Under the pieces are notes generated by a model that saw only the letters and a list, made by a program, of their open reading frames with translations, was not told the origin of the DNA and did no database searches. From Hymenobacter jeollabukensis (GTDB lineage: Bacteria; Bacteroidota; Bacteroidia; Cytophagales; Hymenobacteraceae), in assembly GCF_005771675.1 (NCBI RefSeq), contig NZ_VAJM01000002.1, forward strand, positions 186,001 to 250,000: a stretch of DNA of 64,000 nt. Reading direction: 5' to 3'. Below, piece by piece: positions 5,873-55,644 of the stretch. How positions within the stretch are numbered: position 1 is the stretch's first letter; each line of letters starts with the position of its first letter. A program made the translations under genes and the position numbers.

Positions 5873-5991
5873 GAGATGGTGAAATAGTGAAGTGGTGAGC
5901 TGGTGAGTTTGATGTTCGAGAGGGCGCAGCTGCGCATTTCGCGCAATCAAAACGGCACTCGCTATTTCACCATCTCACCATTTCACCGTCA
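5873..5991. repeat. GGTGA-word inverted repeat, copy A
   Basis: Left arm about 5873-5912 and right arm about 5958-5991. The arms share GAGATGGTGAAATAG exactly and are made of short degenerate words (GGTGA, GTGAA). The left arm ends in the family core GAGTTTGATGTTC. The TGA stop of the lipoprotein gene lies inside the outer word of the right arm. Related copies are at 18909-18998 and 55535-55644. Confidence 0.75.
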
Positions 5992-6459
5992 GCGCGCGTC
6001 TTGCCAAACCAGTTGTTCGGCGGTTCGGTTTTTTTCGAAGTCGGGGCATTTACCGTCGCCGCGGCCGGTGATGCCGCCGTCGGGGGCGCAGAGCACGTTG
6101 CCCTTGGCGTCGTAGAGGGTGGTGAACTGGTCGCAGCAGGGCGAGGTTTCGTAGTACACCGTCTGGCCCTGGTACTGGTAGCTCAGGATGCGGATGCGCG
6201 GGTTTTCGGCCTTAGCGTTCATGTGCGCCTGAATCTTGTCGTCCAGCCACTTGGGTCGGTTGCGCTGGTCGAAGGGAATGTCCTTGACGTTGGTTTCGGG
6301 CACCGGCACGTTGGTGGGCGTGGTGGTGGGAGCGGGCGTCGAGGGGTTGGCCGTGGCCCGCGGCTCCGAGGTATCGGTGGGCGTGGTCAGGTCGACGTGG
6401 CGGGCGCAGGCACCGGTCCAGAGCAGGGCGGCACAGGCTAAAGCGGCAACGGAGCGCAT
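5989..6459 (-). CDS. Lipoprotein of unknown function (DUF6970-like)
   Basis: A 156-residue protein from the ATG at 6459. MRSVAALACAALLWTGACAR is a lipoprotein signal peptide with lipobox WTGAC. Then comes a Thr/Pro-rich linker and a small domain with YQYQGQTVYYETSPCCDQFT and NVLCAPDGGITGRGDGKCPD. Four cysteines in this domain (CC...C...C) may form disulfides. I associate this pattern with DUF6970 in Cytophagales, from memory. It is probably envelope-anchored and is divergent from kptA. Confidence 0.7.
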   Translation of the reverse strand: MRSVAALACAALLWTGACARHVDLTTPTDTSEPRATANPSTPAPTTTPTNVPVPETNVKDIPFDQRNRPKWLDDKIQAHMNAKAENPRIRILSYQYQGQTVYYETSPCCDQFTTLYDAKGNVLCAPDGGITGRGDGKCPDFEKNRTAEQLVWQDAR

Positions 6460-6561
6460 AGGCTTCAGGCGAGGAAAGGGCGGCAAATGTACAAGCGGCG
6501 GGTAGAAGAAATCGACCCGCGCTTACCTTACGGCAGTTTTGCCTACGTAATTCCGCCCCGC

Positions 6562-7116
6562 ATGGCTACTTCCGCCGCCCCCGATCCGCTGCGCCACCTC
6601 AGCAAGTTCCTCTCCCTGATTCTGCGCCACCAGCCCCAGCTCATCGGCCTTACCCTCGACGCGGCCGGCTGGGCCGACGTGGACGACCTGCTGCGGCGCC
6701 TCAGCCAGCACGGCTACCCCACCGACCGCGCCCAGCTCGAAGCCGTGGTAGCGCAGAGCGACAAGCAGCGCTTCGCCCTTAGCCCCGACGGCCAGCGCAT
6801 CCGCGCCAACCAGGGCCACTCGGTGCCGGTGGAACTGGGCTACACCCCCCAGACGCCGCCCGAGCTGCTCTACCACGGCACCGCCACCCGCCACCTGGAG
6901 GCCATCCGGGCCGAGGGCCTGCGCCGCGGCGAGCGGCACCACGTGCACCTCTCGCCCGACGCCGACACGGCCCGCCGGGTGGGACAGCGCCACGGCAGCC
7001 CGGTGGTCCTCACGGTGCGCGCCGGCGACCTGCACCGCCAGGGCCACCCGTTCTTCGTGTCCGATAATGGCGTGTGGCTCACCGAGAGCGTGCCGCCCGG
7101 GTTTCTGCAGGAGTAG
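6562..7116 (+). CDS. kptA: RNA 2'-phosphotransferase (Tpt1/KptA family)
   Basis: A 184-residue protein from the ATG at 6562. LSKFLSLILRHQP, RANQGHS, LYHGT and HHVHLSPD are the signature stretches of the Tpt1/KptA family, including the Arg-His and Arg residues that bind the RNA phosphate. KptA transfers an internal 2'-phosphate from RNA to NAD+, giving ADP-ribose 1'',2''-cyclic phosphate. In eukaryotes it finishes tRNA splicing; bacteria lack that pathway, so the natural substrate is uncertain. It stands alone, divergent from a lipoprotein gene. Confidence 0.9.
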   Translation: MATSAAPDPLRHLSKFLSLILRHQPQLIGLTLDAAGWADVDDLLRRLSQHGYPTDRAQLEAVVAQSDKQRFALSPDGQRIRANQGHSVPVELGYTPQTPPELLYHGTATRHLEAIRAEGLRRGERHHVHLSPDADTARRVGQRHGSPVVLTVRAGDLHRQGHPFFVSDNGVWLTESVPPGFLQE

Positions 7117-7118
7117 TT

Positions 7119-7308
7119 AGTATTGGCTGGCGCCGGTTTAGCGACGAAGGAGCGTAACCGGTGTCTAAGAATAAGGCAGGCTTTCAGCCTGCGCCCGATG
7201 CCCAGCCGCGCCTGCCCGACTAATAGAGCAATACGCAGGTTGGAAACCTGCTTGATGTCGGGCACCGGTTACGCAACTTCCAGTTGCTAAACCGGCGCCA
7301 GTCAGCCG
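7119..7308. repeat. Compound palindromic element between kptA and a microprotein gene
   Basis: Outer arms GGCGCCGGTTTAGC and GCTAAACCGGCGCC, then GCGTAACCGGTG paired with CACCGGTTACGC. Inside lie two smaller hairpins of related sequence, GCAGGCTTTCAGCCTGC and GCAGGTTGGAAACCTGC. The whole 190-bp stretch can fold end to end. It fills the gap between two convergent genes, starting 3 bases after the kptA stop and ending 3 bases before the stop of the minus-strand gene. Confidence 0.8.
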
Positions 7309-7310
7309 GC

Positions 7311-7424
7311 CTACCCGAAAAACACAAACATCAGCGCCAGGGCCACGATGAACACCAGGTACATCAGCCCGTCGGTGAGGATGTACTGCCGGTAGCGGCG
7401 GTAAAAGTCGCGGAGACGCTGCAT
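7311..7424 (-). CDS. 37-residue single-helix membrane microprotein
   Basis: From the ATG at 7424: MQRLRDFYRRYRQYILTDGL, then a hydrophobic helix (MYLVFIVALALMFVFFG) to the end. The Arg/Tyr-rich N-terminus predicts a cytoplasmic N-terminus with the helix in the inner membrane. A TACCTTTG promoter element at 7449-7456 supports expression. It is divergent from recJ. No family is recognised; it could be a small regulatory or structural membrane peptide. Confidence 0.6.
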   Translation of the reverse strand: MQRLRDFYRRYRQYILTDGLMYLVFIVALALMFVFFG

Positions 7425-7448
7425 GATAGGAGAGGGGCGGTGCGGCCC

Positions 7449-7456
7449 CAAAGGTA
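7449..7456 (-). promoter_or_regulatory. -7 promoter element TACCTTTG for the microprotein gene
   Basis: Exact TAnnTTTG match on the minus strand, 25 bases before the ATG at 7424. Confidence 0.55.
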
Positions 7457-7510
7457 CGCAGCCCGCCCCGCCAGCGGGCCCTGGACGGTGGAATCCCAAG
7501 GTTTTCTTCT

Positions 7511-7518
7511 TACTTTTG
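7511..7518 (+). promoter_or_regulatory. -7 promoter element TACTTTTG for recJ
   Basis: Exact TAnnTTTG match, 21 bases before the recJ ATG at 7540, in a pyrimidine-rich tract. Confidence 0.6.
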
Positions 7519-7539
7519 AAGATAACGCCGTCCCCACCC

Positions 7540-9282
7540 ATGCTGAAACGTTGGATTCGTAAGCCCGCGCCCGACCCGGAACAGGTCCGCCACCTTTCCG
7601 AGGCCCTGCGCGTCAACGAGTCCATTATCAGCCTGCTCTGCCAGCGCGGTATCGGCACCTACGACGAGGCCAAGTCCTACTTCCGCCCCGACCTGGCGGA
7701 GCTGCCCGACCCCATGCTCATGCGCGACATGGACCGGGCCGTGCAGCGCCTCACCGACGCGCTCTTCCACGAGGAAAAAGTGCTGGTGTACGGCGACTAC
7801 GACGTGGACGGCACCACCTCGGTGGCCCTGGTGTACTCCTACCTGCGCACCCTGTTCGGCCCCGCCCGCATCGATTACTACATCCCGGACCGCTACATCG
7901 AGGGCTACGGCATTTCGACCATCGGCATCGACTGGGCGGCCAAGAATGGCTACAAGCTCATCGTGGCCCTGGACTGCGGGGTGAAGTCGGTCGACAAAAT
8001 CAGCTACGCCCGCGAGTTGGGCGTGGACTTCATCGTGTGTGACCACCACCTGCCCGGCGACGAGCTGCCGCCCGCCGTGGCCGTGCTCGACCCCAAGCGC
8101 CCCGACTGCCCGTACCCCTACAAGGAGCTGTCGGGCTGCGGCGTGGGCTTCAAGCTGATGCAGGCCCTGTGCCAGAGCCAGGGCTTCGACGAGCAGCCGC
8201 TGCTGGAGCTGCTGGACCTGCTGGCCGTCAGCATCGCCGCCGACATCGTGCCCATCACCGGCGAAAACCGCCTGCTGATGTACCACGGGCTGAAACGACT
8301 CAACGACCCGGCCATCGAAACGCGGCCGGGGCTGTACGCGCTGCGGCAGCTGGCCGGCCTGCGCGAGGGGCCGCTGAACGTGAGCAGCCTGGTGTTCGGC
8401 TTCGCGCCCCGCATCAATGCCGCCGGCCGCCTCGGCGACGCCAAACGCTCGGTGGCCATGCTGCTGAGCGAAACCGCCGAGCAGGCCCTGGCCACTGCCT
8501 CGGTGGTCGACCAGACCAACACCGAGCGCCGCGGCTTCGACACGCGCATCACCGAGGAGGCCCTGCACATGATCGAGACGGACGAGCTGCTGCGCAACTC
8601 CCGCTCCACGGTGCTCTTCAAGCAGGACTGGCACAAGGGCGTCATCGGCATCGTGGCCTCGCGCTGCCTCGACAAGTACTACCGCCCCACCGTCATCCTC
8701 ACCGAATCCAACGGCAAGGCCACCGGCTCGGCCCGCTCGGTGGTGGGCTTCGACGTGCACCAGGCCATCGTGGAGTGCTCCGATTTGCTGGAGCAGTACG
8801 GCGGGCACATGTACGCGGCGGGCCTCACGCTGCCGCTGGAAAACGTGCCCGAGTTCCGCCGCCGCTTCGAGGCCGTGGTGTCGTCCCGCCTCACCGACGA
8901 GCAGATGATTCCGCCGGTCGACATCGACCTGCCGCTGCGCCTGCGCGACGTGACGTGGAGCTTCTACAACCTGCTGCACCAGATGGAGCCCTTCGGCCCC
9001 GGCAACAGCAGCCCGGTGTTCGTATCGGAGCAGGTGTACGCGGTGCCCGGTTCGGCCAAGGTCGTGGGCAACTCCCACCTGAAGCTGACCTTGATGCAGG
9101 AGGATTCCAGCCCCATCGAGGCCATCGGCTTCGGGCTGGCCGAGCATTTCGTGCGCATCAGCCAGGGCCAGCCGTTCAGCGTGTGCTACAACCTGGACGT
9201 GAACGAGTGGCGCGGGCAGAAGTCCCTGCAGCTGCGGCTGAAGGACATCGGCTGGGGCGACGTGGTTCCGTCCGCATCGTAG
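7540..9282 (+). CDS. recJ: Single-stranded-DNA-specific exonuclease RecJ
   Basis: A 580-residue 5'-3' ssDNA exonuclease used in recombination and mismatch/base-excision repair. The ATG at 7540 fits the promoter at 7511. DHH-family motifs are visible in order: VYGDYDVDGTTS (metal), DYYIPDRYIEGYG, ALDCG, VCDHHLPGDELP (DHH), and in DHHA1 APRINAAGRLGDAKRSV with GSARS and GGHMYAAG further on. The C-terminal OB-like part (PVFVSEQVYAVPG...LQLRLKDI) is present, so the protein is full length. The TAG stop lies in the arm of a palindrome shared with doxX. Confidence 0.95.
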   Translation: MLKRWIRKPAPDPEQVRHLSEALRVNESIISLLCQRGIGTYDEAKSYFRPDLAELPDPMLMRDMDRAVQRLTDALFHEEKVLVYGDYDVDGTTSVALVYSYLRTLFGPARIDYYIPDRYIEGYGISTIGIDWAAKNGYKLIVALDCGVKSVDKISYARELGVDFIVCDHHLPGDELPPAVAVLDPKRPDCPYPYKELSGCGVGFKLMQALCQSQGFDEQPLLELLDLLAVSIAADIVPITGENRLLMYHGLKRLNDPAIETRPGLYALRQLAGLREGPLNVSSLVFGFAPRINAAGRLGDAKRSVAMLLSETAEQALATASVVDQTNTERRGFDTRITEEALHMIETDELLRNSRSTVLFKQDWHKGVIGIVASRCLDKYYRPTVILTESNGKATGSARSVVGFDVHQAIVECSDLLEQYGGHMYAAGLTLPLENVPEFRRRFEAVVSSRLTDEQMIPPVDIDLPLRLRDVTWSFYNLLHQMEPFGPGNSSPVFVSEQVYAVPGSAKVVGNSHLKLTLMQEDSSPIEAIGFGLAEHFVRISQGQPFSVCYNLDVNEWRGQKSLQLRLKDIGWGDVVPSAS

Positions 9283-9379
9283 CGCGAACCGCAGGTCGAC
9301 ACAGTCGACTTTCAGTTCGCGTAGCCTGACGTGTGAGCGTGCGTCGTGTTGGAATACGCGAACTGAAAGTTCGCGCTAC
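9279..9379. repeat. GTAGCGCGAAC palindrome spanning the recJ and doxX stop codons
   Basis: The right arm is TACGCGAACTGAAAGTTCGC + GCTAC (9354-9378). The left arm is its reverse complement interrupted by about 19 bases that contain a small GTCGAC...GTCGAC repeat. The TAG of recJ (9280-9282) and the TAG of doxX (complement of 9376-9378) are the same bases of the two arms. Arms of about 25 bp flank a centre of about 35 bp. Confidence 0.85.
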
Positions 9380-9780
9380 ATCCGCCTGCGCAGCGCGTCC
9401 ACGCTCCACGGGCCGGCACCGGCGGCGCTGAGGTATAAGAAGATAAAGCAGAAGAGTACGGCCGACTCGCCGCCGTTCTGAATGGGTAGCGGCGCCTGCG
9501 GAAAGTGGGCTTTGAAATATGCCACGGCCATTTCACCGGCCAGCAGAAAGGCCACCGGCCGCGTGAGGAAGCCCAGCAGCAGAAGCAGCCCGCCGCCAAA
9601 CTCCAGGATGCCGGCCACGCCCATCAGCGACGCCAGCTCCACCGGGCCGTGCTCCCCGGCCGGCACGTTGAACAGTTTCTGCGCGCCGTGCAGCACAAAC
9701 AGGAAGGCGGCCACGATGCGCAGCACGCTGAGCAGGCGCGGGGCCCAGGTGGCGACGACGGAATCATTGAGGGTAGCCAT
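9376..9780 (-). CDS. DoxX family membrane protein
   Basis: A 134-residue four-helix inner-membrane protein. LLSVLRIVAAFLFVLHGAQK is the standard DoxX first helix, followed by LMGVAGILEFGGGLLLLLGF, TRPVAFLLAGEMAVAYFKAH with PQAPLPIQNGGESAVL, and a last helix LFCFIFLYLSAAG. DoxX proteins are linked to quinone metabolism and oxidative stress, but the role of this subgroup is not established. It is convergent with recJ. Confidence 0.9.
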   Translation of the reverse strand: MATLNDSVVATWAPRLLSVLRIVAAFLFVLHGAQKLFNVPAGEHGPVELASLMGVAGILEFGGGLLLLLGFLTRPVAFLLAGEMAVAYFKAHFPQAPLPIQNGGESAVLFCFIFLYLSAAGAGPWSVDALRRRM

Positions 9781-9900
9781 GAGCGGGGTTGGGCTTGGTT
9801 GCTACTGCCCTGCTACGGACTGGTAGTGGTGTGCGTTGGCGACGCGGCTTGGGCTGGCAGCCAGCATCCTCCTTCCATCCATGATATCCAGACGATGTTG

Positions 9901-9965
9901 CCGTGACATACTAATGTCACGCCGAGGACGATAGTATGTCACGGTCATGACATACTATCGTCCTC
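9901..9965. promoter_or_regulatory. Triple TGACATACTA repeat able to form alternative hairpins
   Basis: TGACATACTA occurs at 9904-9913, inverted at 9932-9941 and direct again at 9948-9957. The middle copy can pair with the left one (CCGTGACATACTA / TAGTATGTCACGG) or with the right one (GAGGACGATAGTATGTCA / TGACATACTATCGTCCTC), not both. It lies about 100 bases upstream of the M61 peptidase gene. It could be an operator array, a switchable leader structure or a repeat remnant. Confidence 0.5.
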
Positions 9966-10060
9966 TTTTCGGCCTGTGCGAAGCCACCGCAGCCCGTACC
10001 GGGTTTTCGCGTCAGTTGGCGGCTGGCCGCTACATTAGCCCGCGGCTTATGCTTCTGCCC

Positions 10061-12267: not shown

Positions 12268-12999
12268 ATGATCCTGCGCGCCGAACACCTCGTCAAGAAA
12301 TACAAGCAACGCACCGTCGTCAACGACATGAGCCTGCACGTGGAGCAGGGCGAAATCGTGGGCCTGCTCGGGCCCAACGGCGCGGGCAAAACCACCTCGT
12401 TCTACATGACGGTGGGCATGGTGAAGCCCAACGAGGGCCGCATTTTCCTGGACGACGAGGACATTACCTCCCTGCCCATCTACCAGCGCGCCCGCCGCGG
12501 CATCGGCTATCTGGCCCAGGAAGCCTCGGTGTTTCGCGACCTGACGGTGGAGGAAAACATCCTCTCGGTGCTGGAAATGACCAACCTGCCCAAGCAGGCC
12601 CAGCGCGACAAGGTGGAGGAGCTGCTCAATGAGTTTAGCCTCACCCACGTGCGCAAAAACCTCGGCCGCGTACTTTCGGGCGGGGAGCGGCGCCGCACCG
12701 AAATTGCCCGCGCCCTGGCCGTCGACCCCAAGTTCGTGCTCCTCGATGAGCCCTTCGCCGGCGTCGACCCCATTGCCGTGGAGGAAATCCAGGGCATCGT
12801 GGCCAAGCTCAAGCACAAGAACATCGGCATCCTCATCACCGACCACAACGTGAACGAGACGCTCAGCATCGTCGACCGCGCCTACCTGCTCTTCGAGGGC
12901 AAGCTGCTCAAGGCCGGCACCGCCGAGGAGCTGGCCGCCGACGAGATGGTGCGCCGCGTGTACCTGGGCAAGCACTTCGAGCTGAAGCGAAAGGTCTGA
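12268..12999 (+). CDS. lptB: LPS export ABC transporter ATP-binding protein LptB
   Basis: A 243-residue ATPase of the LptB2FG complex, which extracts lipopolysaccharide from the inner membrane for transport to the cell surface. Walker A is [13 protein letters not shown], the Q-loop follows in [19 protein letters not shown], the signature is [15 protein letters not shown], Walker B is [20 protein letters not shown] and the switch His is in TDHNV. The [18 protein letters not shown] combination is diagnostic of LptB. lptF, lptG, lptA and lptC are not nearby. The stop is directly followed by a CACGGATT repeat. Confidence 0.95.
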
Positions 13000-13243
13000 C
13001 CACGGATTCAGGCGGATTTTTCGGATGTCACGGATTTCGTGGACGATTAATCCGGGGCCAGTGGCTTCGCCTTTTCCAGCCCAAATGCCAGCCCGAAGTC
13101 ACGGCGTAGGAAAGTGGTAATTTGCCCCAAGAGGCCATACAGCAGCCGGTAGCTGCTCAGCTCCGTATGGATGCTGCTGCCTTAGCTGACGGGAACCGTC
13201 CCCAAAATCCGTCTAATCCGAAAAATCCGTCGAATCCGTGGTC
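13000..13243. repeat. CACGGATT-word inverted repeat
   Basis: The left arm (13000-13048) is built of CACGGATTC, GGCGGATTTTTCGG and CACGGATTTCGTGGACGA. The right arm (13204-13243) is the inverse, AAATCCGTC, AATCCGAAAAATCCGTC, GAATCCGTGGTC. The 155-bp centre is single copy. The left arm starts directly after the lptB stop; the right arm contains the GTG proposed as start of the GH3 gene. A single-arm copy of the same unit is at 30757-30805. Confidence 0.8.
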
Positions 13244-14764
13244 ATTGATACCCTGCTCACCTGGATGGTCAAGCCCCGCCTCGCCCGGCTGGAGCGCATC
13301 CGTACGGAGCCCCACGCCGTGCAGGCCGAGCTGCTGCAGGAGCTGCTGCGCACCGCCCGCCACACCGACTGGGGCCGGCTCTACGGCTACGCCGACGGCC
13401 TCTCGGCGCGGGAGCTGGCCCAGCGCGTGCCCGTGAGCAGCTACGAGCAGCTCTACCCATGGATTGAGCGCACCCTGCGCGGGGAGGACGACGTGCTCTG
13501 GCCCGGCCGCGTGCAGTGGTTTGCCAAGAGCAGCGGCACCACCAACGCCCGCAGCAAGTACATTCCCGTCACGGCCGCTTCGCTGGAAGACTGCCATTAC
13601 CGCGCCGGCCGCGACATGGTGGCCGTGGCCCAGACGCTCTACCCCGAAGCCGGCGTGCTGCGCGGCAAGACGCTGGCCCTCGGCGGCTCGCTCAGCCCCA
13701 ACACCTTCCGCCCCGACGACCCCGCCTCCCACATCGGCGACGTGTCGGCCATCATCATGCACAACCTGCCGGTGTGGGCCGAGTCGCGGCGCACGCCGCC
13801 GCTGGAGCTGGCCCTGCTGGGCGAGTGGGAAGAAAAGCTGGAGCGCATGGCCCGGCACGTGCTCACCGAAAACGTGGCCTGCCTGGCCGGCGTGCCCACC
13901 TGGATGATCGTGCTGCTGCGGCGCGTGTCGGAGCTGGCGGGCGGGGCGCCCGTCACGGAGGTGTGGCCCAACCTGCGCCTGTTTATGCACGGCGCGGTGG
14001 CTTTTGGGCCCTACCGCGAGCTGTTTCGCCAGCTCATCCCCGACGAGCGGATGCGCTACCTGGAAATCTACAACGCTTCCGAGGGCTACCTCGCCTTTCA
14101 GGACCAGCCCGACTCCCAGGACCTGCTGCTGCTCCTCGACCACGGCGTGTACTACGAATTCATACCGGTCGAGGAAATCGGGCGGGAGCACCCGCGCACG
14201 CTCACCCTGGAAGAAGTGGAAATTGGGCCCATCTACGCCCTGGTCATCAGCACCAACGCCGGCCTCTGGCGCTACCAGATCGGTGACACGGTGCGCTTCA
14301 CTTCGCTGGCGCCCTACCGCATCCGCATTGCGGGCCGCACCAAGCACTTTCTGAATGCCTTCGGCGAGGAAGTGGTGGTCGAAAACGCCGAAGCCGCCGT
14401 GGCCGCCGCCTGCGCCGCCACCGGCGCTCAGGTGCGCGACTATACCGCCGCCCCGGTGTACTTCGGCACCGGTGCCCATTCGCGCGGCGGCCACCAGTGG
14501 CTGATCGAATTTGCCCAGCCGCCCCGCGACGAAGCCCAGTTCGTGCAGGTGCTCGACGCAACGCTGCGCCAGCTCAACTCCGACTACGACGCCAAGCGCT
14601 ACCGCGACCTGGCCCTGCAGCCGCCGGTACTGACGGTGGCGCCGGCGGGCACCTTCGAGCACTGGCTGGCCCGGCGCGGCAAGCTGGGCGGGCAGCACAA
14701 GGTGCCGCGCCTGAGTAATTCCCGCGAGCTGCTGGACGAGCTGCTGCGCGAAGCGGCGGAATAA
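13238..14764 (+). CDS. GH3 auxin-responsive promoter family protein
   Basis: A 508-residue acyl-adenylate/thioester-forming protein of the GH3 family (PF03321). It begins VIDTLLTWMVKPRLARLERI, the family-typical start, so the GTG at 13238 inside a repeat arm is the best start; the first ATG at 13265 would cut the N-terminal helix. FAKSSGTTNARSKYIPVT is the P-loop-like ATP site, LEIYNASEGYLAFQD the second motif, and YRIRIAGRTKHFLNAFGEEV the hinge region. Plant GH3 enzymes join amino acids to jasmonate or auxin. The bacterial substrate is unknown. Confidence 0.88.
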   Translation: MVIDTLLTWMVKPRLARLERIRTEPHAVQAELLQELLRTARHTDWGRLYGYADGLSARELAQRVPVSSYEQLYPWIERTLRGEDDVLWPGRVQWFAKSSGTTNARSKYIPVTAASLEDCHYRAGRDMVAVAQTLYPEAGVLRGKTLALGGSLSPNTFRPDDPASHIGDVSAIIMHNLPVWAESRRTPPLELALLGEWEEKLERMARHVLTENVACLAGVPTWMIVLLRRVSELAGGAPVTEVWPNLRLFMHGAVAFGPYRELFRQLIPDERMRYLEIYNASEGYLAFQDQPDSQDLLLLLDHGVYYEFIPVEEIGREHPRTLTLEEVEIGPIYALVISTNAGLWRYQIGDTVRFTSLAPYRIRIAGRTKHFLNAFGEEVVVENAEAAVAAACAATGAQVRDYTAAPVYFGTGAHSRGGHQWLIEFAQPPRDEAQFVQVLDATLRQLNSDYDAKRYRDLALQPPVLTVAPAGTFEHWLARRGKLGGQHKVPRLSNSRELLDELLREAAE

Positions 14765-18908: not shown

Positions 18909-18998
18909 AGGTGAGTAGGCGAGGTGGTGAAATGGTGAGTTTTGATATTCCAGCCTGCAGAACATCACTCACCATTTCACCACCTCACCTACTTCACC
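18909..18998. repeat. GGTGA-word inverted repeat, copy B
   Basis: Left arm 18909-18950 and right arm 18965-18998 agree at about 30 of 33 positions, including GAGGTGGTGAAATGGTGAGT. The core GAGTTTTGATATTC resembles the cores of copies A and C. The last codons and TAG stop of ridA (complement of 18989-18991) are part of the right arm. Confidence 0.8.
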
Positions 18999-24515: not shown

Positions 24516-25370
24516 ATGGAGATACTTGAAACCGCCGCCGCGTTGCAAACCCTCACCGAAACCTGGCGCCGGGAGGGCCGCCGCATCGGCTTTGTGCCCA
24601 CCATGGGCGCCCTGCACGAGGGGCATTTACAGCTCGTGCGCACCGCCGCGGCCGAAAACGACGTAGTCGTGGTCAGCATCTTCGTCAACCCGACGCAGTT
24701 CAACAACGCGGACGACTTTAAATTCTATCCCCGTACCCTCGAATCGGACGCGGCGTTGCTGCAGGGCACCGGCGCCACGGTGATTTTTGCGCCCTCGGTG
24801 GAGCAGATGTACCCCCGGACCAGCGTGGTGCGCTTCGATTTCGGGCCGCTGGAGCGGGTGATGGAAGGCGCCAAGCGCCCCGGGCACTTCAACGGGGTGG
24901 CCACGGTGGTGAGCAAGCTGTTTCACCTCAGCCGCCCGCACCAGGCCTACTTCGGGCAGAAGGACTGGCAGCAGGTGGCCGTGGTGCAGCAGCTGCTGGC
25001 CGATTTGAGCTTCGATCTGAAGCTCGTCAGCTGCCCCACGATTCGGGAGGAGGACGGGCTGGCTATGTCGTCGCGCAACCGGCGCCTGCGCCCGGAAGCC
25101 CGCGCCGTGGCCCCGCGCCTGTACGAGGCCCTACAGCTGACGGCCGCGGCCCTGCGCGAAGGTCTCTCGCCGGGCGAGGCCCAGCAGAAGGGCGCCGAAT
25201 GGCTGCAGCAGTTTCCCGACATCGAGCTGGAGTATCTGGAAGTAGCCGATGCGCAAACCCTGCAGCCGGCCTGGGCGGGCCCCTCGGCCGAGCAGCCGCT
25301 GGTTATCTGCCTGGCCGCGTGGCTGGGCGGGGTACGCCTCATCGACAACGTGCTGGTCGACGGTGAATGA
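24516..25370 (+). CDS. panC: Pantoate--beta-alanine ligase
   Basis: A 284-residue enzyme joining pantoate and beta-alanine with ATP to give pantothenate. FVPTMGALHEGHLQLVRTA carries the HxGH-type ATP motif; VVVSIFVNPTQFNNADDFKF, FNGVATVVSKLFHLSRPHQA, YFGQKDWQQVAVV and IREEDGLAMSSRNRRL (KMSKS-equivalent) follow. The length is normal. It is followed by panD after a 177-base gap that holds an inverted repeat and a separate panD promoter. The stop codon is inside the repeat. Confidence 0.95.
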   Translation: MEILETAAALQTLTETWRREGRRIGFVPTMGALHEGHLQLVRTAAAENDVVVVSIFVNPTQFNNADDFKFYPRTLESDAALLQGTGATVIFAPSVEQMYPRTSVVRFDFGPLERVMEGAKRPGHFNGVATVVSKLFHLSRPHQAYFGQKDWQQVAVVQQLLADLSFDLKLVSCPTIREEDGLAMSSRNRRLRPEARAVAPRLYEALQLTAAALREGLSPGEAQQKGAEWLQQFPDIELEYLEVADAQTLQPAWAGPSAEQPLVICLAAWLGGVRLIDNVLVDGE

Positions 25371-25505
25371 GCAACGTGGTGAATGAGTGAGTTGCGCGTA
25401 GAAAGGCTTATTGGCAAGAAAGCAGTCGGCAGAAAATCAGACATTTGATTTGCTGTTGTCCATTCGCCGATCCACTTCATTCAGTCACTCAATCACTCAT
25501 TCACC
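25363..25505. repeat. GTGAATGAGTGA-word inverted repeat between panC and panD
   Basis: The left arm (25363-25400) is GGTGAATGAGCAACGTGGTG followed by AATGAGTGAGTT; the right arm (25472-25505) is made of TTCATTCAGTCACTC and AATCACTCATTCACC. The arms are degenerate inverted copies of GTGAATGAGTGA words. The panC stop TGA lies in the first word. The centre is about 70 bases. Confidence 0.7.
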
Positions 25506-25510
25506 GTTCG

Positions 25511-29833: not shown

Positions 29834-30757
29834 ATGGAGGATTACAATAAAGTGATAGAATCCCTTGGGGTTCGTTACATCAAGGCCAAAAATCTGGTGT
29901 TGCAACAGCCGTTTACGGTGCGCAACTACTATGACGTTGGTAATAACCTGATTCTGCTGCACAAGGGCCGTGTTTCCTTCGGCGAAGAGGATCTGGTGAT
30001 TGAGGAAGGGGACATGCTGTTCATCCCGGGCGGCCGCGCTACCCGCGTGAGCTACGGCGAGACGGGCGGCAAGACCATTACCAACGACGACCTGATCAGC
30101 AATAAGGACAAGTTCTTCCACTCCAACGCCGACCTCGACCTGATTTCGGACGCCGACGAGAGCCACTCGTTCGTGTCCTTCGAAGCCAAGGTGTTCGACT
30201 CGGTGAACTTCTTCGCCTCGCTGGACGTGCCCGCTTTCATGATCAGCGGCAACTCCAAGCTGGCCAACCTGGTCATCAAGGTAGTGGAAGAGAGCCTGCA
30301 GGACCTGCCGGGCCGGGAGCGTCTGATTTCGATTTACACGGAAAATATAGTCGTGGAAATCATTCGCTACATTCTGAAGAACAAGATGTTCGTGGAGCAA
30401 CTGGCCACGAACAGCACCTACTTCAAGGATCCGCGCCTCATCGACCTGTTCAACTACATCAAGGAGAACCTGGGCGGCGACCTGTCGAACAAGGTGCTGT
30501 CGGGCGTGGCCAACGTGTCGGAGGACTACGTGGGCCAGTACTTCAAGATGCTAACAGGCATCAACCCGCAGGACTACATCGAGTACCAGCGCATGGAACG
30601 CGCCGTGTTCCTGCTGCGCACCACCAAGAAGAGCATCCGCGACATCGGCAAAGAGGTGGGCTACAAGGACACGGCTTATTTCTGCCGCCGCTTCAAGATG
30701 ATGTTCGGCATTCCGGCTGGTAAGATGCGCCGCCGCGAATCGGCCATGAACATCTAA
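29834..30757 (+). CDS. AraC family transcriptional regulator
   Basis: A 307-residue protein from the ATG at 29834 (MEDYNKVIESLGVRYIKAKN). An N-terminal cupin-like sensor (LILLHKGRVSFGEEDLVIEE, GDMLFIPGGRAT) is followed by a helical linker and, from about residue 210, the double HTH (LSNKVLSGVANVSEDYVGQY, FKMLTGINPQDYIEYQRM, then KSIRDIGKEVGYKDTAYFCR, RFKMMFGIPAGKMR). The first 40 codons have lower GC than the surroundings, as seen in strongly conserved genes. Its targets are unknown. The stop is directly followed by a CACGGATT repeat. Confidence 0.9.
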   Translation: MEDYNKVIESLGVRYIKAKNLVLQQPFTVRNYYDVGNNLILLHKGRVSFGEEDLVIEEGDMLFIPGGRATRVSYGETGGKTITNDDLISNKDKFFHSNADLDLISDADESHSFVSFEAKVFDSVNFFASLDVPAFMISGNSKLANLVIKVVEESLQDLPGRERLISIYTENIVVEIIRYILKNKMFVEQLATNSTYFKDPRLIDLFNYIKENLGGDLSNKVLSGVANVSEDYVGQYFKMLTGINPQDYIEYQRMERAVFLLRTTKKSIRDIGKEVGYKDTAYFCRRFKMMFGIPAGKMRRRESAMNI

Positions 30758-30805
30758 TCACGGATTCGACGGATTTTTCGGATTCCACGGATTTCGTGGA
30801 CGATT
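30757..30805. repeat. CACGGATT-word repeat, single arm
   Basis: AATCACGGATTCGACGGATT, TTTCGGATTC and CACGGATTTCGTGGACGATT closely match the left arm of the element at 13000. It begins at the stop codon of the AraC gene. The opposite arm is absent; TCCACGGATTTCGTGGA is itself nearly palindromic. Confidence 0.75.
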
Positions 30806-45042: not shown

Positions 45043-45142
45043 ATGAGTTGTCAGTTGTGGGTTGTTAGTTGTCAGTAAACAGGCAACAGCAACCGGCACT
45101 GACGACCCTACTGACAACTAATAACTGACAACTGTCAACTCG
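45043..45142. repeat. GTTGTCAGT-word inverted repeat between the Fe-S genes
   Basis: The left arm ATGAGTTGTCAGTTGTGGGT plus TGTTAGTTGTCAGT pairs with the right arm ACTGACAACTAATAACTGAC plus AACTGTCAACTCG. It starts directly after the TAA of the first Fe-S gene and ends 5 bases before the ATG of the second, filling the whole 105-base gap inside an apparent operon. Confidence 0.8.
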
Positions 45143-50102: not shown

Positions 50103-50118
50103 TCCCAGCCACATCAAT

Positions 50119-50159
50119 GCAAAACGCCCCGACGCAGCTTGCGTCGGGGCGTTTTGCAT
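50119..50159. terminator. Bidirectional intrinsic terminator
   Basis: AAAACGCCCCGACGC / GCGTCGGGGCGTTTT with an AGCTT loop, between the convergent DUF4476 and DUF4293 genes. Confidence 0.9.
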
Positions 50160-50203
50160 TGGTTACCTGCTGAAGGCGTCAGCGTAACGCGGGTTGATAT
50201 CAG

Positions 50204-50671
50204 CTAGCGCAGGCGGTCCATGGAGCGCACCAGCTTCTCGTCGCGGCGGATGAAGCGGTTGGCCAGCAGGTTGAGCAGCAGCGCCAGCGTGGGCAGGTAG
50301 AAGCCGGCCTCGAAGGTGCCGGGCATTTTCACATTGACCATCTGCTCGCCCTGCGAGGAGTAGTAGAAGGCGGCGCCGATGGTGGCCGAAATGAGCAGCA
50401 GGTTCAAGGAGCCGAGCATGAGCTGGGTCATGCGCTTCTGGTACTGGAAGATTTCGGCCAGGGCTACGATGGCCGAAATGGCGGCCAGGGCGGCAATGGC
50501 GTAGGTGGCAATGGGCGCCTGGGCGGGGTTGGAGGACGTCAGGTGCGTGGCCGTGAGCGTAATGGTCTGATTGGTTTGCGGATCGGTTTTGGCCCAGATC
50601 GGCAGAAACAGGACGCAGACCATGCAGATGGCGAGCAGCAGCAGAAAAACGCTTTGGATTCTTTGTATCAT
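50204..50671 (-). CDS. DUF4293 membrane protein
   Basis: A 155-residue protein from the ATG at 50671 (MIQRIQSVFLLLLAICMVCV). Four transmembrane helices follow the family pattern, with a periplasmic loop after helix 1 and IFQYQKRMTQLMLGSLNLLL in the middle; it ends in a basic tail (NRFIRRDEKLVRSMDRLR). MIQRIQS is the hallmark start of DUF4293. Function unknown. A TACTTTTG promoter element is 41 bases upstream. Confidence 0.88.
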   Translation of the reverse strand: MIQRIQSVFLLLLAICMVCVLFLPIWAKTDPQTNQTITLTATHLTSSNPAQAPIATYAIAALAAISAIVALAEIFQYQKRMTQLMLGSLNLLLISATIGAAFYYSSQGEQMVNVKMPGTFEAGFYLPTLALLLNLLANRFIRRDEKLVRSMDRLR

Positions 50672-50711
50672 CTTTGTTGTTATGAGCGAATGGCTGGCCG
50701 AAGACGGCCGG

Positions 50712-50719
50712 CAAAAGTA
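50712..50719 (-). promoter_or_regulatory. -7 promoter element TACTTTTG for the DUF4293 gene
   Basis: Exact TAnnTTTG match on the minus strand in the 80-base divergent gap with the thiolase gene. Confidence 0.6.
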
Positions 50720-50751
50720 GCCAAAAGACTCCGCTAACCCGCATTCTTCCA

Positions 50752-51951: not shown

Positions 51952-52514
51952 TGGCCGCCGCCCCGGCTCCCGACCTGCTGCGGCCCGCGCTGCCGCTGAC
52001 GGTGGCCGGGGCGCGCCTGCGGCCGTTCGAAGCCGATGATGCGCCCGCGTTGGCCCGCCACGCCAACGACCGGGACATCTGGCGGAACCTGCGCGACCGG
52101 TTTCCGCATCCCTACACCCTGGCCGACGCCGAGTGGTACGTGCAGTTCGTCAATGCCGACGGCAGCCGCGACCTGCACCTCTGCCTCGAAGTCGACGGTG
52201 AGGCGGCCGGCAGCATCAGCGTGCTGTTTCAGGACGACATCAGCCGCCGCTCGGCCGAAATCGGCTACTGGCTTGGCCGCGCCTACTGGGGCCGCGGCAT
52301 CGTGACGGCGGCAACCCGGGCCCTGGCCGACTACGCGCTGGCGCATTTCGACCTGTGCCGACTCTACGCCACTGTTTTCGAATACAACCCGGCTTCGGCG
52401 CGGGTGCTGGAAAAGGCCGGCTTCGCGTTTGAAGCCCGTCTGCGGCGCAGCATCACCAAGGACGGCCAAACCGTCGACGGCCTGCTTTACGCGTTGCTTA
52501 ATTCTGAATGCTGA
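51951..52514 (+). CDS. GNAT family N-acetyltransferase (RimJ/RimL type)
   Basis: A 187-residue protein whose ATG overlaps the thiolase stop (TAATG). VAGARLRPFEADDAPALARH starts the fold; IGYWLGRAYWGRGIVTAATR is the acetyl-CoA-binding motif A, followed by FDLCRLYATVFEYNPASARV and LEKAGFAFEARLRRSITKDG. Similar proteins acetylate ribosomal proteins, tRNA-linked or small-molecule amines. The substrate is unknown. The stop codon lies in an inverted repeat. Confidence 0.9.
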   Translation: MAAAPAPDLLRPALPLTVAGARLRPFEADDAPALARHANDRDIWRNLRDRFPHPYTLADAEWYVQFVNADGSRDLHLCLEVDGEAAGSISVLFQDDISRRSAEIGYWLGRAYWGRGIVTAATRALADYALAHFDLCRLYATVFEYNPASARVLEKAGFAFEARLRRSITKDGQTVDGLLYALLNSEC

Positions 52515-52591
52515 ATTAGGAATTCTGAATTGACAGGTGTTCAGTCGTCTGAAAATCAATTCATAATTCAGCATTCATAATTCAGAATTCT
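52499..52591. repeat. AATTCTGA-word inverted repeat between GNAT and truA
   Basis: The left arm TTCTGAATGCTGAATTAGGA + ATTCTGAATTGA and the right arm TCAATTCATAATTCAGCATT + CATAATTCAGAATTCT are inverted copies of ATTCTGAA/ATTCATAA words. The GNAT stop (TGA, 52512-52514) is within the left arm; the TTG start of truA follows the right arm by 3 bases. Confidence 0.8.
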
Positions 52592-52593
52592 CC

Positions 52594-53418
52594 TTGCGCT
52601 ATTTCCTCGAACTCGCCTACGACGGCACGGCCTACTGCGGCTGGCAGATGCAGCCCTCGGCCCCGAGCGTGCAGCAGGAGCTGGACCGCCGCCTCACGCA
52701 GATTCTGCGGCAGCCGGTGTACTCGCTCGGCAGTGGCCGGACGGACTCGGGGGTGCACGCCAGTCACCAGGTAGCGCACTTCGACGCGGAGCTGCCGGCC
52801 GGATTGAGTCTGGAGCAGTTGCTCTACCGCCTCAACCGCGCCCTGCCCTCGGATATCGGCGCTTACGCCCTCACGCCGGTGCAGCCCGACGCGCACGCCC
52901 GCTTTTCGGCCGTGGCGCGCTCCTACGAGTACCACGTGGCCCTGCGCCGGGACCCGTTTCGGCGCGACCAGGCCCTGTGGCTCGACAAGGCGCCCGACGT
53001 GGCGGCCATGAACGAGGCGGCCCAGGCCCTCGTCGGCCAGCGCGACTTCACGGCGTTTTCCAAGGTGAAGGGCGCCGAGACGCACTACGTCTGCTGGGTG
53101 CACGAGGCTGGCTGGCACCCCACGCCGCATGGGCTGATGTTCCGCATCCGGGCCAACCGCTTCGTGCGCGGCATGGTGCGGCTGGTGGTGGGCACTCTGC
53201 TGGACGTGGGCCGCGGCAAGCTCACGCCCGCGCAGTTTGCCGAGGTGCTGCACCGGCAGCAGCGCATTGCGGCCAGCGGAGCGGCGGCGGCGCACGGGCT
53301 GTTTCTGAGCCGGGTGGAGTATCCGCCGGAGGTGCTGCTGCCGGGCCAGGAGCCGGCCGAGAAGCCGTTTTTCGTAACGGACGCGGAGCTGCAGCCGTTT
53401 TACTGGCAGCAGAAGTAG
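52594..53418 (+). CDS. truA: tRNA pseudouridine(38-40) synthase TruA
   Basis: A 274-residue enzyme making pseudouridine at positions 38-40 of the tRNA anticodon arm. The start is TTG at 52594 (LRYFLELAYDGTAYCGWQMQ matches the family N-terminus and no ATG is available). The catalytic Asp is in GSGRTDSGVHASHQVAHFD; SYEYHV, DFTAFSKVKG and FRIRANRFVRGMVRLVVGTL follow. It is separated from upstream genes by an inverted repeat. A MITE-like element starts 9 bases after its stop. Confidence 0.94.
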   Translation: MRYFLELAYDGTAYCGWQMQPSAPSVQQELDRRLTQILRQPVYSLGSGRTDSGVHASHQVAHFDAELPAGLSLEQLLYRLNRALPSDIGAYALTPVQPDAHARFSAVARSYEYHVALRRDPFRRDQALWLDKAPDVAAMNEAAQALVGQRDFTAFSKVKGAETHYVCWVHEAGWHPTPHGLMFRIRANRFVRGMVRLVVGTLLDVGRGKLTPAQFAEVLHRQQRIAASGAAAAHGLFLSRVEYPPEVLLPGQEPAEKPFFVTDAELQPFYWQQK

Positions 53419-53427
53419 CACGAAATT

Positions 53428-53656
53428 CCCCTCCTTTTTGAAGGAGGGGACGCGGCGAGTTTACTCGCCGCTGGGGTGGTTGCGTCGTTGCTGACATTGA
53501 ACGGCGGCCCCAGAACAACTCTGCGCCAACTTCTGCGTCCTCTGCGGGCTAACCAACGTCAGCAACAGTTGGGCTTTGCGGATAACAACGTCAGCAACGG
53601 CGCAACCACCCCAGCCAAGCCTGCGGCTTGACATCCCCTCCTTCAAAAAGGAGGGG
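53428..53656. repeat. MITE-like inverted-repeat element, copy 2
   Basis: A 229-bp element with CCCCTCCTTTTTGAAGGAGG(GG) hairpins at both ends, then CTGGGGTGGTTGCGTCGTTG in the left arm and its inverse in the right. The small hairpin in the left arm differs from copy 1 (GGCGAGTTTACTCGCC against CCGCTTTAGCGG) but keeps pairing. The centre is unrelated to copy 1. It lies between truA and the ABC exporter. Confidence 0.85.
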
Positions 53657-53755
53657 AGCATGGCCTTCGGCCCGGTGCCCGCCGTAACTTGCGCCCCCGT
53701 TGGGCGGTTTACTGCCGTACCCAATTCCCGCCCACCTAATCCCCACCCGCTGCCC

Positions 53756-55534
53756 GTGGAATCTGCTGCGCCCGCCGCTACCTCCGCCAAAGCCGGCAAT
53801 ATCTTCGACTGGCAGGTGCTGCGGCGCCTGATGGTCTATATCCGGCCTTACCGCGGCGTGTTTGCGCTGCTCATCGTCCTCACCATTGCCACCGCCGCGC
53901 TGGGCACGGTGCGCCCCTTCCTGATTCAGCAGATGGTGGACGTGCAGATCAGCAACGGCGACTGGCCGGGGCTGAACCGCATGTTCGCCCTGCTGCTGGG
54001 CTTGCTGGTGCTGCACACCGGCGTGAGCTACCTGCAGACCTACTACGGCGGCTGGTTGGGCCAGTACATCGTGCGCGACATTCGCGTGGACCTCTACCGC
54101 CACATCCTGAACCTGCGCCTGCAGTTCTTCGACCGCACGCCCATCGGGGTGCTGGTCACGCGCAACATCTCCGACGTGGAAACGCTGTCGGACGTGTTCA
54201 GCGAAGGGCTGGCGGCCATGATTGGCGACATTCTGCAGCTGGTGTTCATCATGGCCTTCATGTTTTACATCGACTGGCGGCTGACGCTGGTGAGCCTCTC
54301 GGTGATTCCGCCGCTGCTCTTCAGCACCTACGTGTTCAAGGAGAAGGTCAAGAAGTCGTTTCAGGAGGTGCGCACGGCCGTGGCCAGTCTCAACGCCTTC
54401 GTGCAGGAGCACCTGACGGGCATGAACATCGTGCAGATTTTCAACAACGAGCAGCGCGAGTTCCGCAAGTTTGAGGCGCTGAACAAGGAGCACACGGCGG
54501 CCAACATCCGCTCGGTGCTCTACTATTCGATTTACTTCCCGGTGGCGGAGGTGCTGGGCGCGGTGGGGGTGGGTCTGCTGGTGTGGTACGCCTCGCACGG
54601 CCAAATCGAGGGCACGATATCGAAGGGCGCGCTGATTGCCTTCATTATGTACAACGCGCTGTTCTTCCGGCCCATCCGCCAGATTGCCGACCGGTTCAAC
54701 ACCCTACAGCTGGGCCTGGTGAGTACCGAGCGCCTGCTGAAGCTGCTCGACAGCCAGGAGTTCATCCCCGACGAAGGCACCCGCCAGCCGACAACCTTGA
54801 AGGGCGCGGTGGACTTCCGTCACGTCTGGTTTGCTTACAACGAGCCGGAGTGGGTGCTCAAGGACATTAACTTCGAGGTGAAGCCGGGCCAGACGGTGGC
54901 CTTCGTGGGTGCTACCGGCGCGGGCAAAACCAGCATCATCAACCTGCTCAGTCGCTTCTACGACATTCAGCAGGGCGAAATATGCGTCGACGGGCACGAT
55001 TTGCGCGAGTACGACCTGAAGGCCCTGCGCAAGCACATCGGGGTGGTGCTGCAGGACGTGTTCCTCTTCAACGGCACGATTCAGGACAACATCACCCTCG
55101 GCAACGACGACATCACCGAAGCCCAGATCTGGCACGCGGCCCGGCTGGTCGGGGCCGATAAGTTTATCGAGCGGCTGCCCGGCGGCTTGCAGTACAAGGT
55201 GATGGAGCGCGGCTCGACGCTGTCGGTGGGGCAGCGCCAGCTCATCAGCTTCGTGCGCGCCCTGGTCTACGACCCGCGTATCATCATCCTCGACGAAGCC
55301 ACCTCCTCGGTCGACTCCGAGACGGAGGAAATGATTCAGGAGGCCATCGAGAAGCTGATGCAGGGCCGCACTTCGCTCGTCATTGCCCACCGCCTGAGCA
55401 CCATTCAGAAAGCCGACCGCATCATCGTGCTCGACCGGGGCGAAATCAAGGAAAGCGGGCAACACGAGGAGCTGCTGCGCCTGCCTGGCGGCTACTACGC
55501 CCAGCTCTACCAGATGCAGTATGTAACCGAATAG
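53756..55534 (+). CDS. ABC transporter, fused permease and ATPase (exporter type)
   Basis: A 592-residue half-transporter. The GTG at 53756 (VESAAPAATSAKAGNIFDWQ) is preferred; an ATG at 53660 would add a Pro-rich tail running from the repeat. Six transmembrane helices (residues 30-320) with RVDLYRHILNLRLQFFDRTP and the DVETLSDVFSEGLAAM coupling region; the ATPase has Walker A GATGAGKTS, Q-loop VVLQDVFLFNGTI, signature TLSVGQRQLISFVRALVYD, Walker B IIILDEATSSVD and H-loop VIAHRLSTI. It is an MsbA/multidrug-type homodimer; the cargo is unknown. Confidence 0.93.
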   Translation: MESAAPAATSAKAGNIFDWQVLRRLMVYIRPYRGVFALLIVLTIATAALGTVRPFLIQQMVDVQISNGDWPGLNRMFALLLGLLVLHTGVSYLQTYYGGWLGQYIVRDIRVDLYRHILNLRLQFFDRTPIGVLVTRNISDVETLSDVFSEGLAAMIGDILQLVFIMAFMFYIDWRLTLVSLSVIPPLLFSTYVFKEKVKKSFQEVRTAVASLNAFVQEHLTGMNIVQIFNNEQREFRKFEALNKEHTAANIRSVLYYSIYFPVAEVLGAVGVGLLVWYASHGQIEGTISKGALIAFIMYNALFFRPIRQIADRFNTLQLGLVSTERLLKLLDSQEFIPDEGTRQPTTLKGAVDFRHVWFAYNEPEWVLKDINFEVKPGQTVAFVGATGAGKTSIINLLSRFYDIQQGEICVDGHDLREYDLKALRKHIGVVLQDVFLFNGTIQDNITLGNDDITEAQIWHAARLVGADKFIERLPGGLQYKVMERGSTLSVGQRQLISFVRALVYDPRIIILDEATSSVDSETEEMIQEAIEKLMQGRTSLVIAHRLSTIQKADRIIVLDRGEIKESGQHEELLRLPGGYYAQLYQMQYVTE

Positions 55535-55644
55535 CTGAGTTGGTGAGGTGGTGAACTGGTGAGCTGACGTTCCGTTTGCGCAGGATGCGCGGTTCGCCCC
55601 ACCAGAACATCAAACTCACCAGTTCACCACCTCACCATTTCACC
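55535..55644. repeat. GGTGA-word inverted repeat, copy C
   Basis: The left arm 55535-55575 and right arm 55607-55644 share TGGTGAGGTGGTGAACTGGT exactly. The right arm, read inverted, ends in GAGTTTGATGTTC, the same core as copies A and B. It begins directly after the TAG of the ABC exporter and ends 5 bases before the next ATG. Confidence 0.8.

Follow-up and report, generated by a model that had tools for sequence, protein, structure and literature searches.

Why do intergenic inverted repeats of several unlike sequence families sit on or beside the stop codons of neighbouring genes? The question is raised by a stretch of 64,000 nucleotides (nt) of Hymenobacter jeollabukensis (contig NZ_VAJM01000002.1, positions 186,001 to 250,000; hereafter the window), in which a preliminary description listed twelve such elements, most of them two inverted arms around a short centre, and proposed either a shared insertion mechanism acting at gene ends or a process that builds inverted word arrays there, perhaps to stabilise or end transcripts. 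Our answer is that they probably represent two kinds of small mobile-type element, the second of which (kind 2) consists of gene-less relatives of elements carrying, between mirrored arms, a gene for either IVP (the 23S rRNA intervening-sequence protein, a four-helix bundle, PF05635) or a small protein of the GxxExxY family (PF13366). Kind 2 is best read as non-autonomous relatives of a broad class of mobile elements seated at stop codons.

The inverted elements themselves are real. Ten of the twelve (at 3786, 5867, 7124, 13013, 18914, 25360, 45045, 52497/52500, 53427 and 55536) were found again among the matches listed (25 of 70 inverted pairs), the element at 9279 is weaker (16-nt arms, inverted repeat score 32) and the one at 30757 is one arm only. 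Counts for this genome refer to an 864-kb sample, made up of the window and 40 stretches of 20 kb from the 6.18-Mb genome, in which genes were called by a codon-usage script of our own and not by a standard caller; 650 of its 720 gaps were scanned, with one dinucleotide shuffle per gap (n=650) as the control for chance. An inverted repeat score of at least 32 was reached in 144 of the 650 gaps and in none of the 650 shuffles. The suspected excess near stop codons is likewise borne out, as 32 of the 56 long-loop repeats in tandem gaps of the sample (score at least 36) lie no more than 10 nt from a stop or overlap it, against 19.0 under random placement. Forty-two of these 56 are closer to the stop than to the start; 15 lie within 10 nt of a start, and 11 overlap a stop, two a start. 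In the window our own gene calls place the stops of ridA (18989), recJ (9282), doxX (9376), panC (25370) and the GNAT gene (52514) inside arms or tags, as had been described. TGA stops are not evidently enriched next to arrays (8/32 vs 145/725).

The phrase "several families, one architecture" holds as a description of these elements, but it mixes two kinds. A single mobile family for all of them was rejected: the elements fall into two groups by arm composition, by polarity, by the type of gap that they prefer and by partner gene. Kind 1 (3786, 53427, 7119 and 9279) comprises what are, to judge from their sequence, palindromic repeats of the repetitive extragenic palindromic (REP) or terminal-inverted-repeat type. 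An element of kind 2 has a centre flanked by two arms, each made of a few degenerate units of one shared word; its members in the window are 5873, 18909, 25360, 45043, 52499 and 55535 (period 7-8) together with 13000 and the half-element 30757 (period 9). A rule based on arm periodicity called 76 such arrays in stretches of six genomes, of which 73 were kept after the removal of three period-10 palindromes: 31 from H. jeollabukensis, 24 from H. edaphi, eight from a further relative, G009, six from G010, three from G006 and one from Solirubrum. These 73 contain orthologous copies, and 57 non-redundant arrays remain once matching copies are dropped. Within the window the rule caught 18910, 45045, 52497 and 55529; the elements at 5867, 25360 (inverted repeat score 27, under the cut of the rule), 12997 and 30758 were assigned to kind 2 by inspection of their words.

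Kind 2 has no fixed sequence. The best period is 8 in 39 of the 73 elements and 7 in 34, and the 57 non-redundant arrays fall into 11 named word families and four others. Read from the outside in, both arms carry more G than C in 72 of 73 elements, and this polarity is more general than stop content, which is itself raised: the arms of the H. jeollabukensis elements hold 179 stop triplets outside-in, compared with 137 in dinucleotide shuffles (sd 6) and 69 on the opposite strand. All three frames are closed within the first 30 nt in 28 of 62 such arms read outside-in and in two of 62 read inside-out (shuffles, 0.11). A GTTCTG-like motif lies just inside the arms of 10 of the 17 non-redundant elements of the GGTGA family (around 55569 in the window, for example); GTTCTG as an inner motif common to all word families was rejected, 80 flanks of other families giving four occurrences outside-in and two in the opposite sense.

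Arms of the same kind surround two families of protein genes. In the Solirubrum group, one gap holds a small GxxExxY-family gene between mirrored arrays (Pfam run on locus L242). PF13366 gives eight matches in four of eight genomes of the genus, two of them being pieces of one split gene (examined as one locus, L248), and is found in 69 of 120 genomes of the family. Every one of the seven loci studied within the genus shows mirrored arms (scores 30-89, in a frame without shuffles), and five of six reach 28 in a narrower frame with five shuffles. Their arms are mostly of period 9-10. The genes at L242-L244 are flanked by CACGGATT-type words, which are matched at period 9 in the window by 12997-13244 and 30758-30805; other loci of the genus have other words.

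For IVP the association is broader still. PF05635 has 23 matches in seven of the eight genomes of the genus, and 13 of 14 loci fetched have mirrored arms scoring at least 28, their words including GTTGTCA, TTTTTCG, TTAATAA, CAATGAG, TAGGAGC, TTGTGAA and others. These 14 elements measure 426-525 nt, with arms of 19-54 nt. As a control, two of 104 small genes reach a score of 28, and the one with periodic arms is greA, which has a separate GGTGA element on either side. Among the eleven named word families of gene-free arrays, six (20 of the 57 elements) are also represented by IVP-bearing elements at these 14 loci; GTTGTCA, for example, the word at 45045, also flanks the IVP genes of L253, L254 and L258. 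At the junction corresponding to 5873, the genome G010 carries an IVP gene between GTAGTACT-type words, in arms that score only 18.

Mirrored arms were present at all 16 plasmid IVP loci fetched (hand-picked for taxonomic spread out of 54 hits), which represent seven phyla: ten come from cyanobacteria and the others from Gemmatirosa, Azospirillum, Bernardetia, Chlorohelix, Monoglobus and Treponema saccharophilum. The scores range from 32 to 66, the best of 20 shuffles for each locus from 20 to 29. G exceeds C in both arms at 14 of the 16. Their words are many, some recurring (L266 with L269; L272 with L274, which resemble one shared insertion). Left and right arms of the same locus reach 28 in 29 of 30 cases, compared with 30 of 422 pairings of a left arm with the right arm of a different locus. 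Where the arms of IVP loci are long enough (n=28), the period is 7 in 25 and 8 in three. We also observed that several of the plasmid IVP genes (L264-L279) lie between co-functional partners, namely ribonucleotide reductase beta and alpha, cas6 and cas4 (twice), cas2 and cas1 (twice), or hsdS and hsdR.

Gene-bearing elements sit at stop codons as well. At all 20 IVP and GxxExxY loci of the genus an element edge lies at the stop side of a gene, none being in a divergent gap; 19 of these edges are within 16 nt of the stop and one overlaps it by 43. Among the 13 plasmid IVP loci that have a stop side, eight overlap the stop or are no more than 10 nt away from it. In the IVP element of L260 (about 1430-1446; C5 of H. 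jeollabukensis), the array ATTAATAATTAA supplies the stop of the upstream gene, since the protein, which we take to be HlyD-like, ends in INN-stop read from the array. Junctions with and without the element could also be compared. In Calothrix brevissima an IVP element fills an operon junction, separating an integrase gene from the gene that follows; the junction is intact in three relatives, at 3 nt, and with respect to the nearest relative 12 bases including the native stop have been replaced, a new stop standing at the element edge. These boundaries were read by eye, automatic alignment having misplaced them, and the relatives are 90-92% alike at best. In Nostoc edaphicum the element adjoins the stop of the reductase alpha gene; the corresponding gap of a Calothrix relative measures 40 nt. 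At cas2/cas1, a relative that lacks the element has a junction of 2 nt.

The gene-free arrays behave in the same way in the gaps of our sample. Of 26 kind-2 arrays in tandem gaps, 22 lie within 10 nt of a stop or overlap it (14.6 under random placement) and 15 lie within 10 nt of a start; ten overlap a stop, one a start. The sequence left over beside them has a median of 18 nt, compared with 130 nt in element-free tandem gaps (n=392) and 129 nt for kind 1, and the corresponding medians in H. edaphi are 17, 128 and 88 nt.

Orthologous gaps differ in the elements that they hold. Had the gaps of relatives all contained the same arms, ordinary conserved sequence would have been the simpler view; instead they are often empty or hold a different element (Table 1, last column). 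Relatives may carry different words at one junction, the arms still matching each other. Window gaps compared number 54 for H. edaphi (94.5% mean protein identity) and 51 for G009 (90.7%). Where the element of H. jeollabukensis is not conserved, a different long inverted repeat stands in 10 of 28 gaps of H. edaphi and in 10 of 39 of G009, as against a background of 13/266 and 8/240 for gaps of at least 60 nt without an element (Fisher 6e-6 and 2e-5), although three or four of each ten "different" repeats resemble, by eye, diverged copies of one family. The two arms of an element are more alike than orthologous arms in 16 of 18 comparisons with G009, five of five in the Solirubrum group and six of 19 with H. 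edaphi, a comparison favoured by the choice of arms for their match. Stem changes compensated on both sides exceed expectation (8 vs 2.1 for H. edaphi, 15 vs 4.8 for G009); with respect to H. edaphi, 88 plus 15 columns are broken and eight compensated. Strong purifying selection on the stems was considered and is not supported by these stem and arm comparisons. Taken together, the gaps speak for turnover more than for conservation.

A shared insertion mechanism at gene ends, as first proposed, is supported for the word arrays, which flank IVP and GxxExxY genes, in the genus sit on stops and have junctions with and without the element, and does not extend to all the elements, 3786, 53427, 7119 and 9279 being palindromic repeats of other kinds. 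The principal competitor is that elements insert anywhere and that selection retains those at gene ends, stop adjacency being the pattern left by the survivors, which we regard as possible though rather doubtful. Kind 1 fits it, with its leftover median hardly different from that of element-free tandem gaps, and REPs are known near gene ends (PMC3733652); stops within the arms would also make insertion into last codons tolerable. For kind 2, insertion in proportion to gap length predicts 1% of arrays in gaps of at most 30 nt, where 15 of 26 are seen. Convergent gaps, the most permissive ones, are depleted in kind 2 and enriched in kind 1 (tandem:convergent 55:6 vs 77:33; Fisher P 0.0023 for three related genomes pooled, which are not independent, and 0.051 for H. 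jeollabukensis alone). The 18-nt median leftover also argues against random insertion followed by selection; equally short residual gaps would, however, result from an element that deletes its surroundings.

Two further explanations were weighed. Local slippage and template switching might build mirrored arrays at gene ends, the IVP and GxxExxY genes being passengers; orthologous sites that differ in words while their arms match, as in the comparisons above, are what such a process would give, and one arm can be a perfect tandem repeat while its partner is degenerate. This seems improbable in view of the word families that recur at unrelated sites with shared details (GTTGTCAGTTGCGAGTTGTCAG), of the inner GTTCTG shared within the GGTGA family, of GGTGACA recurring in an Anabaena plasmid, and of a link to two specific protein families that a local process would not lead one to expect. 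That the arms instead serve as 3' ends, forming hairpins that terminate or shield transcripts and being retained for this function, we consider quite improbable. Six window elements are predicted to fold strongly (z -4.0 to -12.1), two-sided stem changes are above expectation, and small terminator-like hairpins occur within the kind-1 elements 3786 (3808-3785) and 7119. Most stem changes nevertheless break pairing, shifts of whole units can mimic compensation, and the same gap is often empty in relatives. In 21 comparisons with H. edaphi, the word-array arms show lower similarity than the remaining gap sequence 14 times and higher similarity six times, so that the role in ending transcripts put forward earlier is not borne out. 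Three arrays, moreover, flank a separate, ordinary-looking terminator. Kind-2 loops are at least 22 nt long and lack the combination of a short-loop, GC-rich stem and a T run; no terminator-like match was seen inside 45045, 52497, 53427 or 55529 in a scan that sees only loops of 3-8 nt and so cannot judge whole elements (25360 and 30757 lay outside it). One weak match lies at the edge of 13000. Terminator-like matches are near the numbers in shuffles (10 vs 10.2; 17 vs 12.7).

Mirrored arms stand on both sides of an ordinary-looking terminator, which a relative without (intact) arms also has, at C1 55728-55916 and C1 95561-95723 of H. jeollabukensis and also at gap 28072 of the Solirubrum stretch, there in both G006 and G010. 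The addition of arms around an ancestral terminator at these three places is suggestive, but loss in the relative explains them equally well.

Several observations weigh against our reading of kind 2 as relatives of IVP and GxxExxY elements. The centres of the window arrays of period 7-8 are about 22-95 nt long, and none of the window centres is known to contain an IVP gene, whole or as a remnant; because these centres are too short for an IVP gene, we call the arrays non-autonomous relatives and not IVP elements, copies that lost the gene or never had one. The element at 13000 has a 145-nt centre without a GxxExxY gene, PF13366 has no match in the H. jeollabukensis genome, and of the three IVP genes in that genome one has an internal stop. 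Only six of the 11 word families are matched at IVP loci of the genus; the commonest, GGTGANNT (17/57), as well as GAATGAG and AATTCTGA have no IVP counterpart, and that of GGTGACA is found solely in the Anabaena plasmid. GxxExxY loci outside the genus are less regular, four of eight reaching 28 (cross pairs, 2/56). The loci are not fully independent, as L254/L258 and L272/L274 look like shared insertions. Five of the 13 plasmid loci with a stop side lie 49-375 nt from the stop, and L273 is in a divergent gap. At L269/L293 the gap that lacks the element measures 132 nt, and the pair gives no clean junction; no target-site duplication was seen when loci that have an element were compared with their strongly diverged counterparts that lack it. 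We also asked whether stop codons dictate the choice of words: the excess of 179 over 137 (sd 6) is real, yet stops are not the whole rule, because GTTGTCA, TTTTTCG and CACGGATT words hold few or no stops outside-in. Gene-free arrays, finally, are dense in the genus and scarce elsewhere in our set, 80 named loci around recJ relatives (1.45 Mb) giving seven mirrored arrays (none in shuffles), three of them in the near relatives L021 and L045; when the GTTGTCA element at 45045 served as query for a DNA search across phyla, it matched one Hymenobacter plasmid and gave two short matches. Movement of the elements is something that we infer, and stop codons may be either targeted or merely tolerated.

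The individual elements are collected in Table 1. Most gene names of the preliminary description are supported by Pfam, namely RecJ, DoxX, PanC, GNAT, RidA-type (Ribonuc_L-PSP), AraC-type, iron-sulphur and ABC genes. The gene named lptB (12268-12999) is an ABC ATPase according to Pfam, and the lipoprotein, probably the gene ending at 5989, has a Pfam match to DUF6970 only.

Table 1. Inverted elements of the window, their genomic setting and the same junctions in relatives
Position	Strand	Kind	Arms and centre	Setting	RNA fold z	Same junction in relatives
3786..3998		1, family A	layered palindrome CCCCTCCTT..AAGGAGGGG / GGGGTGGT / CGTTGCTGACGTTGAAC, 80-nt centre	between nitroreductase-family stop (4009) and Pirin gene start (3753)		three relatives: no element (gap of 44-49 nt); G009: a different palindrome
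5867..5987		2	GGTGANNT words, period 8, mirrored	overlaps DinB-type start codon on left; right end 1 nt short of stop of gene 5989-6459	-6.9	
7124..7304		1	palindrome CTGGCGCCGGTTTAGCG..	convergent gap, KptA-type gene / small gene		absent from G009; a different palindrome in H. edaphi
9279..9379		1	two GTAG-tagged palindromes	between recJ and doxX		
12997..13244		2	CACGGATTN words, period 9, mirrored, 145-nt centre	begins on stop of ABC ATPase gene (12999)		H. gummosus (L021): mirrored, words partly other
18910..18998		2	GGTGANNT words, period 8	includes RidA-type gene stop (18989)	-12.1	G009: mirrored array, other words
25360..25507		2	GTGAATGAG words, period 8	panC/panD junction (panC and aspartate decarboxylase by Pfam); includes panC stop (25368-25370)		H. 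edaphi: GGGTAAG-type words
30758..30805	+	2	lone period-9 CACGGATTN arm	right behind AraC-type gene stop (30757)		
45045..45141		2	GTTGTCA words, period 7	two co-directional genes with iron-sulphur / CCG domains; stop 45042		H. edaphi: TAGGAGC-type words; G009: CGTC-type palindrome and leftover right arm
52497..52590		2	AATTCTGA words, period 7	includes GNAT stop (52512-52514)	-4.8	
53427..53657		1, family A	palindrome	begins 9 nt past last base of tRNA pseudouridine synthase stop (53418)		H. edaphi: unrelated CCCCCTCTCC palindrome
55529..55648		2	GGTGANNT words, period 8	overlaps ABC exporter stop (55534), runs to next start codon (55649)	-9.3	retained in H. edaphi

The palindromes of kind 1 belong to other types of repeat. 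The genome has a single match to the Y1 transposase family (PF01797), a gene (L241 1337-2095, C3 near 154920) bounded by 50-nt inverted repeats. The last 17 bases of these repeats, CGTTGCTGACGTTGAAC, correspond to the inner end of family A, with no mismatch at 3844 and one at 53486; family A and the Y1 terminal repeat share this inner end only, their outer parts being different. On this likeness, we read family A as a probable non-autonomous relative of the Y1 (IS200-type) transposase element. The family of 7124 recurs at C1 154981, 211351 and 294035. At 9279 the tags (GTAG at 9279-9282, CTAC at 9376-9379) supply both TAG stops, those of recJ and doxX. Kind 1 has no G/C polarity in this genome, 49 of 114 arms having G over C and 57 C over G. 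Repeats such as CGTCATGTCGAGC.., elsewhere in the genome, begin with CGTC and fit the CGTC super-family of REPs, which occurs in Bacteroidetes too (PMC3733652). According to the same source, the tag of GTAG-tagged REPs can give a TAG stop and REPs lie close to gene 3' ends, so that the part of the stop-codon pattern due to kind 1 is already known. In these properties, and in the way that terminal repeats of Y1 transposases turn into repeat families, kind 1 resembles the GTAG/CGTC REPs and the RAYT/TIRYT systems (PMC3733652); kind 2 differs from these in having no fixed sequence, in preferring tandem over convergent gaps and in going with IVP and GxxExxY genes.

Palindromes were also noticed in two other settings. 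A perfect 18-nt hairpin (GAGGACGATAGTATGTCA) lies at 9924-9965 of the window, in a gap where H. edaphi and G009 are without a comparable repeat. Palindromes of the GTCATCCTGAGC or GTCATGTCGAGC type occur inside or beside the remains of word arrays, as if nested, in the orthologs of C21 60748 (H. edaphi, G009), of C21 269630 (G009) and of the window gap 45043 (G009).

Genes for S23/IVP four-helix-bundle proteins are known mainly from rRNA intervening sequences. The example from Coxiella burnetii 23S rRNA is a 428-nt element with an S23 frame and a 28-bp terminal stem that RNase III cuts in vitro, and the origin of such sequences is debated, a mobile element being among the proposals (PMC4990558). 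The likeness to our gene-bearing elements lies in an S23/IVP frame between complementary, stem-forming ends and in a similar size (PMC4990558). The differences are that the window elements lie between protein genes and not in a 23S rRNA helix, that those of the genus sit at stop codons, that the arms are arrays of degenerate 7-8-base words and that most copies sampled are gene-free.

The heptamer repeats, with which STRR repeats are grouped here, are another known system close to kind 2. Intergenic heptamer repeats such as TAACTGA are described from Beggiatoaceae, cyanobacteria and Bacteroidetes, and no mechanism for their transfer is evident (PMC4679880). They share with kind 2 the period-7 words, the mixtures of words, the intergenic position and a patchy distribution over overlapping phyla; they differ in being described as direct (one set is indirect) and, in the main genome of that study, as lying mostly just before start codons, and the sections covered make no mention of mirrored arms or of an IVP gene (PMC4679880). 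A literature search over titles and abstract openings, with most subscription journals outside its coverage, gave no report tying such words to IVP or GxxExxY genes.

Miniature inverted-repeat transposable elements (MITEs) are short, gene-free and dispersed, with inverted ends, and are present or absent between relatives, all of which applies to kind 2 as well. Kind-2 elements differ from MITEs in that no target-site duplication was seen in the diverged pairs compared, that their ends are not fixed in sequence and that their apparent parents carry IVP or GxxExxY genes.

If kind 2 is indeed what we take it to be, an element with a mirrored array at each end would enter a co-directional junction at or beside a stop codon, and the IVP or GxxExxY product would take part in the movement, in trans for the gene-free copies. 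Words with stops when read outside-in would end the upstream protein almost unchanged, so that both neighbours survive. The transcript would fold into a long stem, which RNase III may cut, by analogy with the rRNA intervening sequences. One can go further and imagine the IVP arrays as a mobile class spanning phyla that chooses stop codons through an Avd-like four-helix-bundle protein, possibly with an RNA step, its words being rewritten as it spreads, such that the ends inherit a rule and not a sequence: a mirrored 7- or 8-base word, G-rich and often stop-rich outside-in. The RNA step is suggested because one of the two IVPs examined also matches Avd-type models, below their cut-offs. This extended version is tentative, and we think it unlikely to hold in full; were it true, the heptamer repeats of cyanobacteria and other bacteria would be the ends and remains of such elements.

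Should mirrored arrays prove to be the ends of IVP elements, IVP genes and heptamer repeats would join one class of mobile element. Their seating on stop codons would predict where new copies land, and the class could be tested by a survey of genomes.

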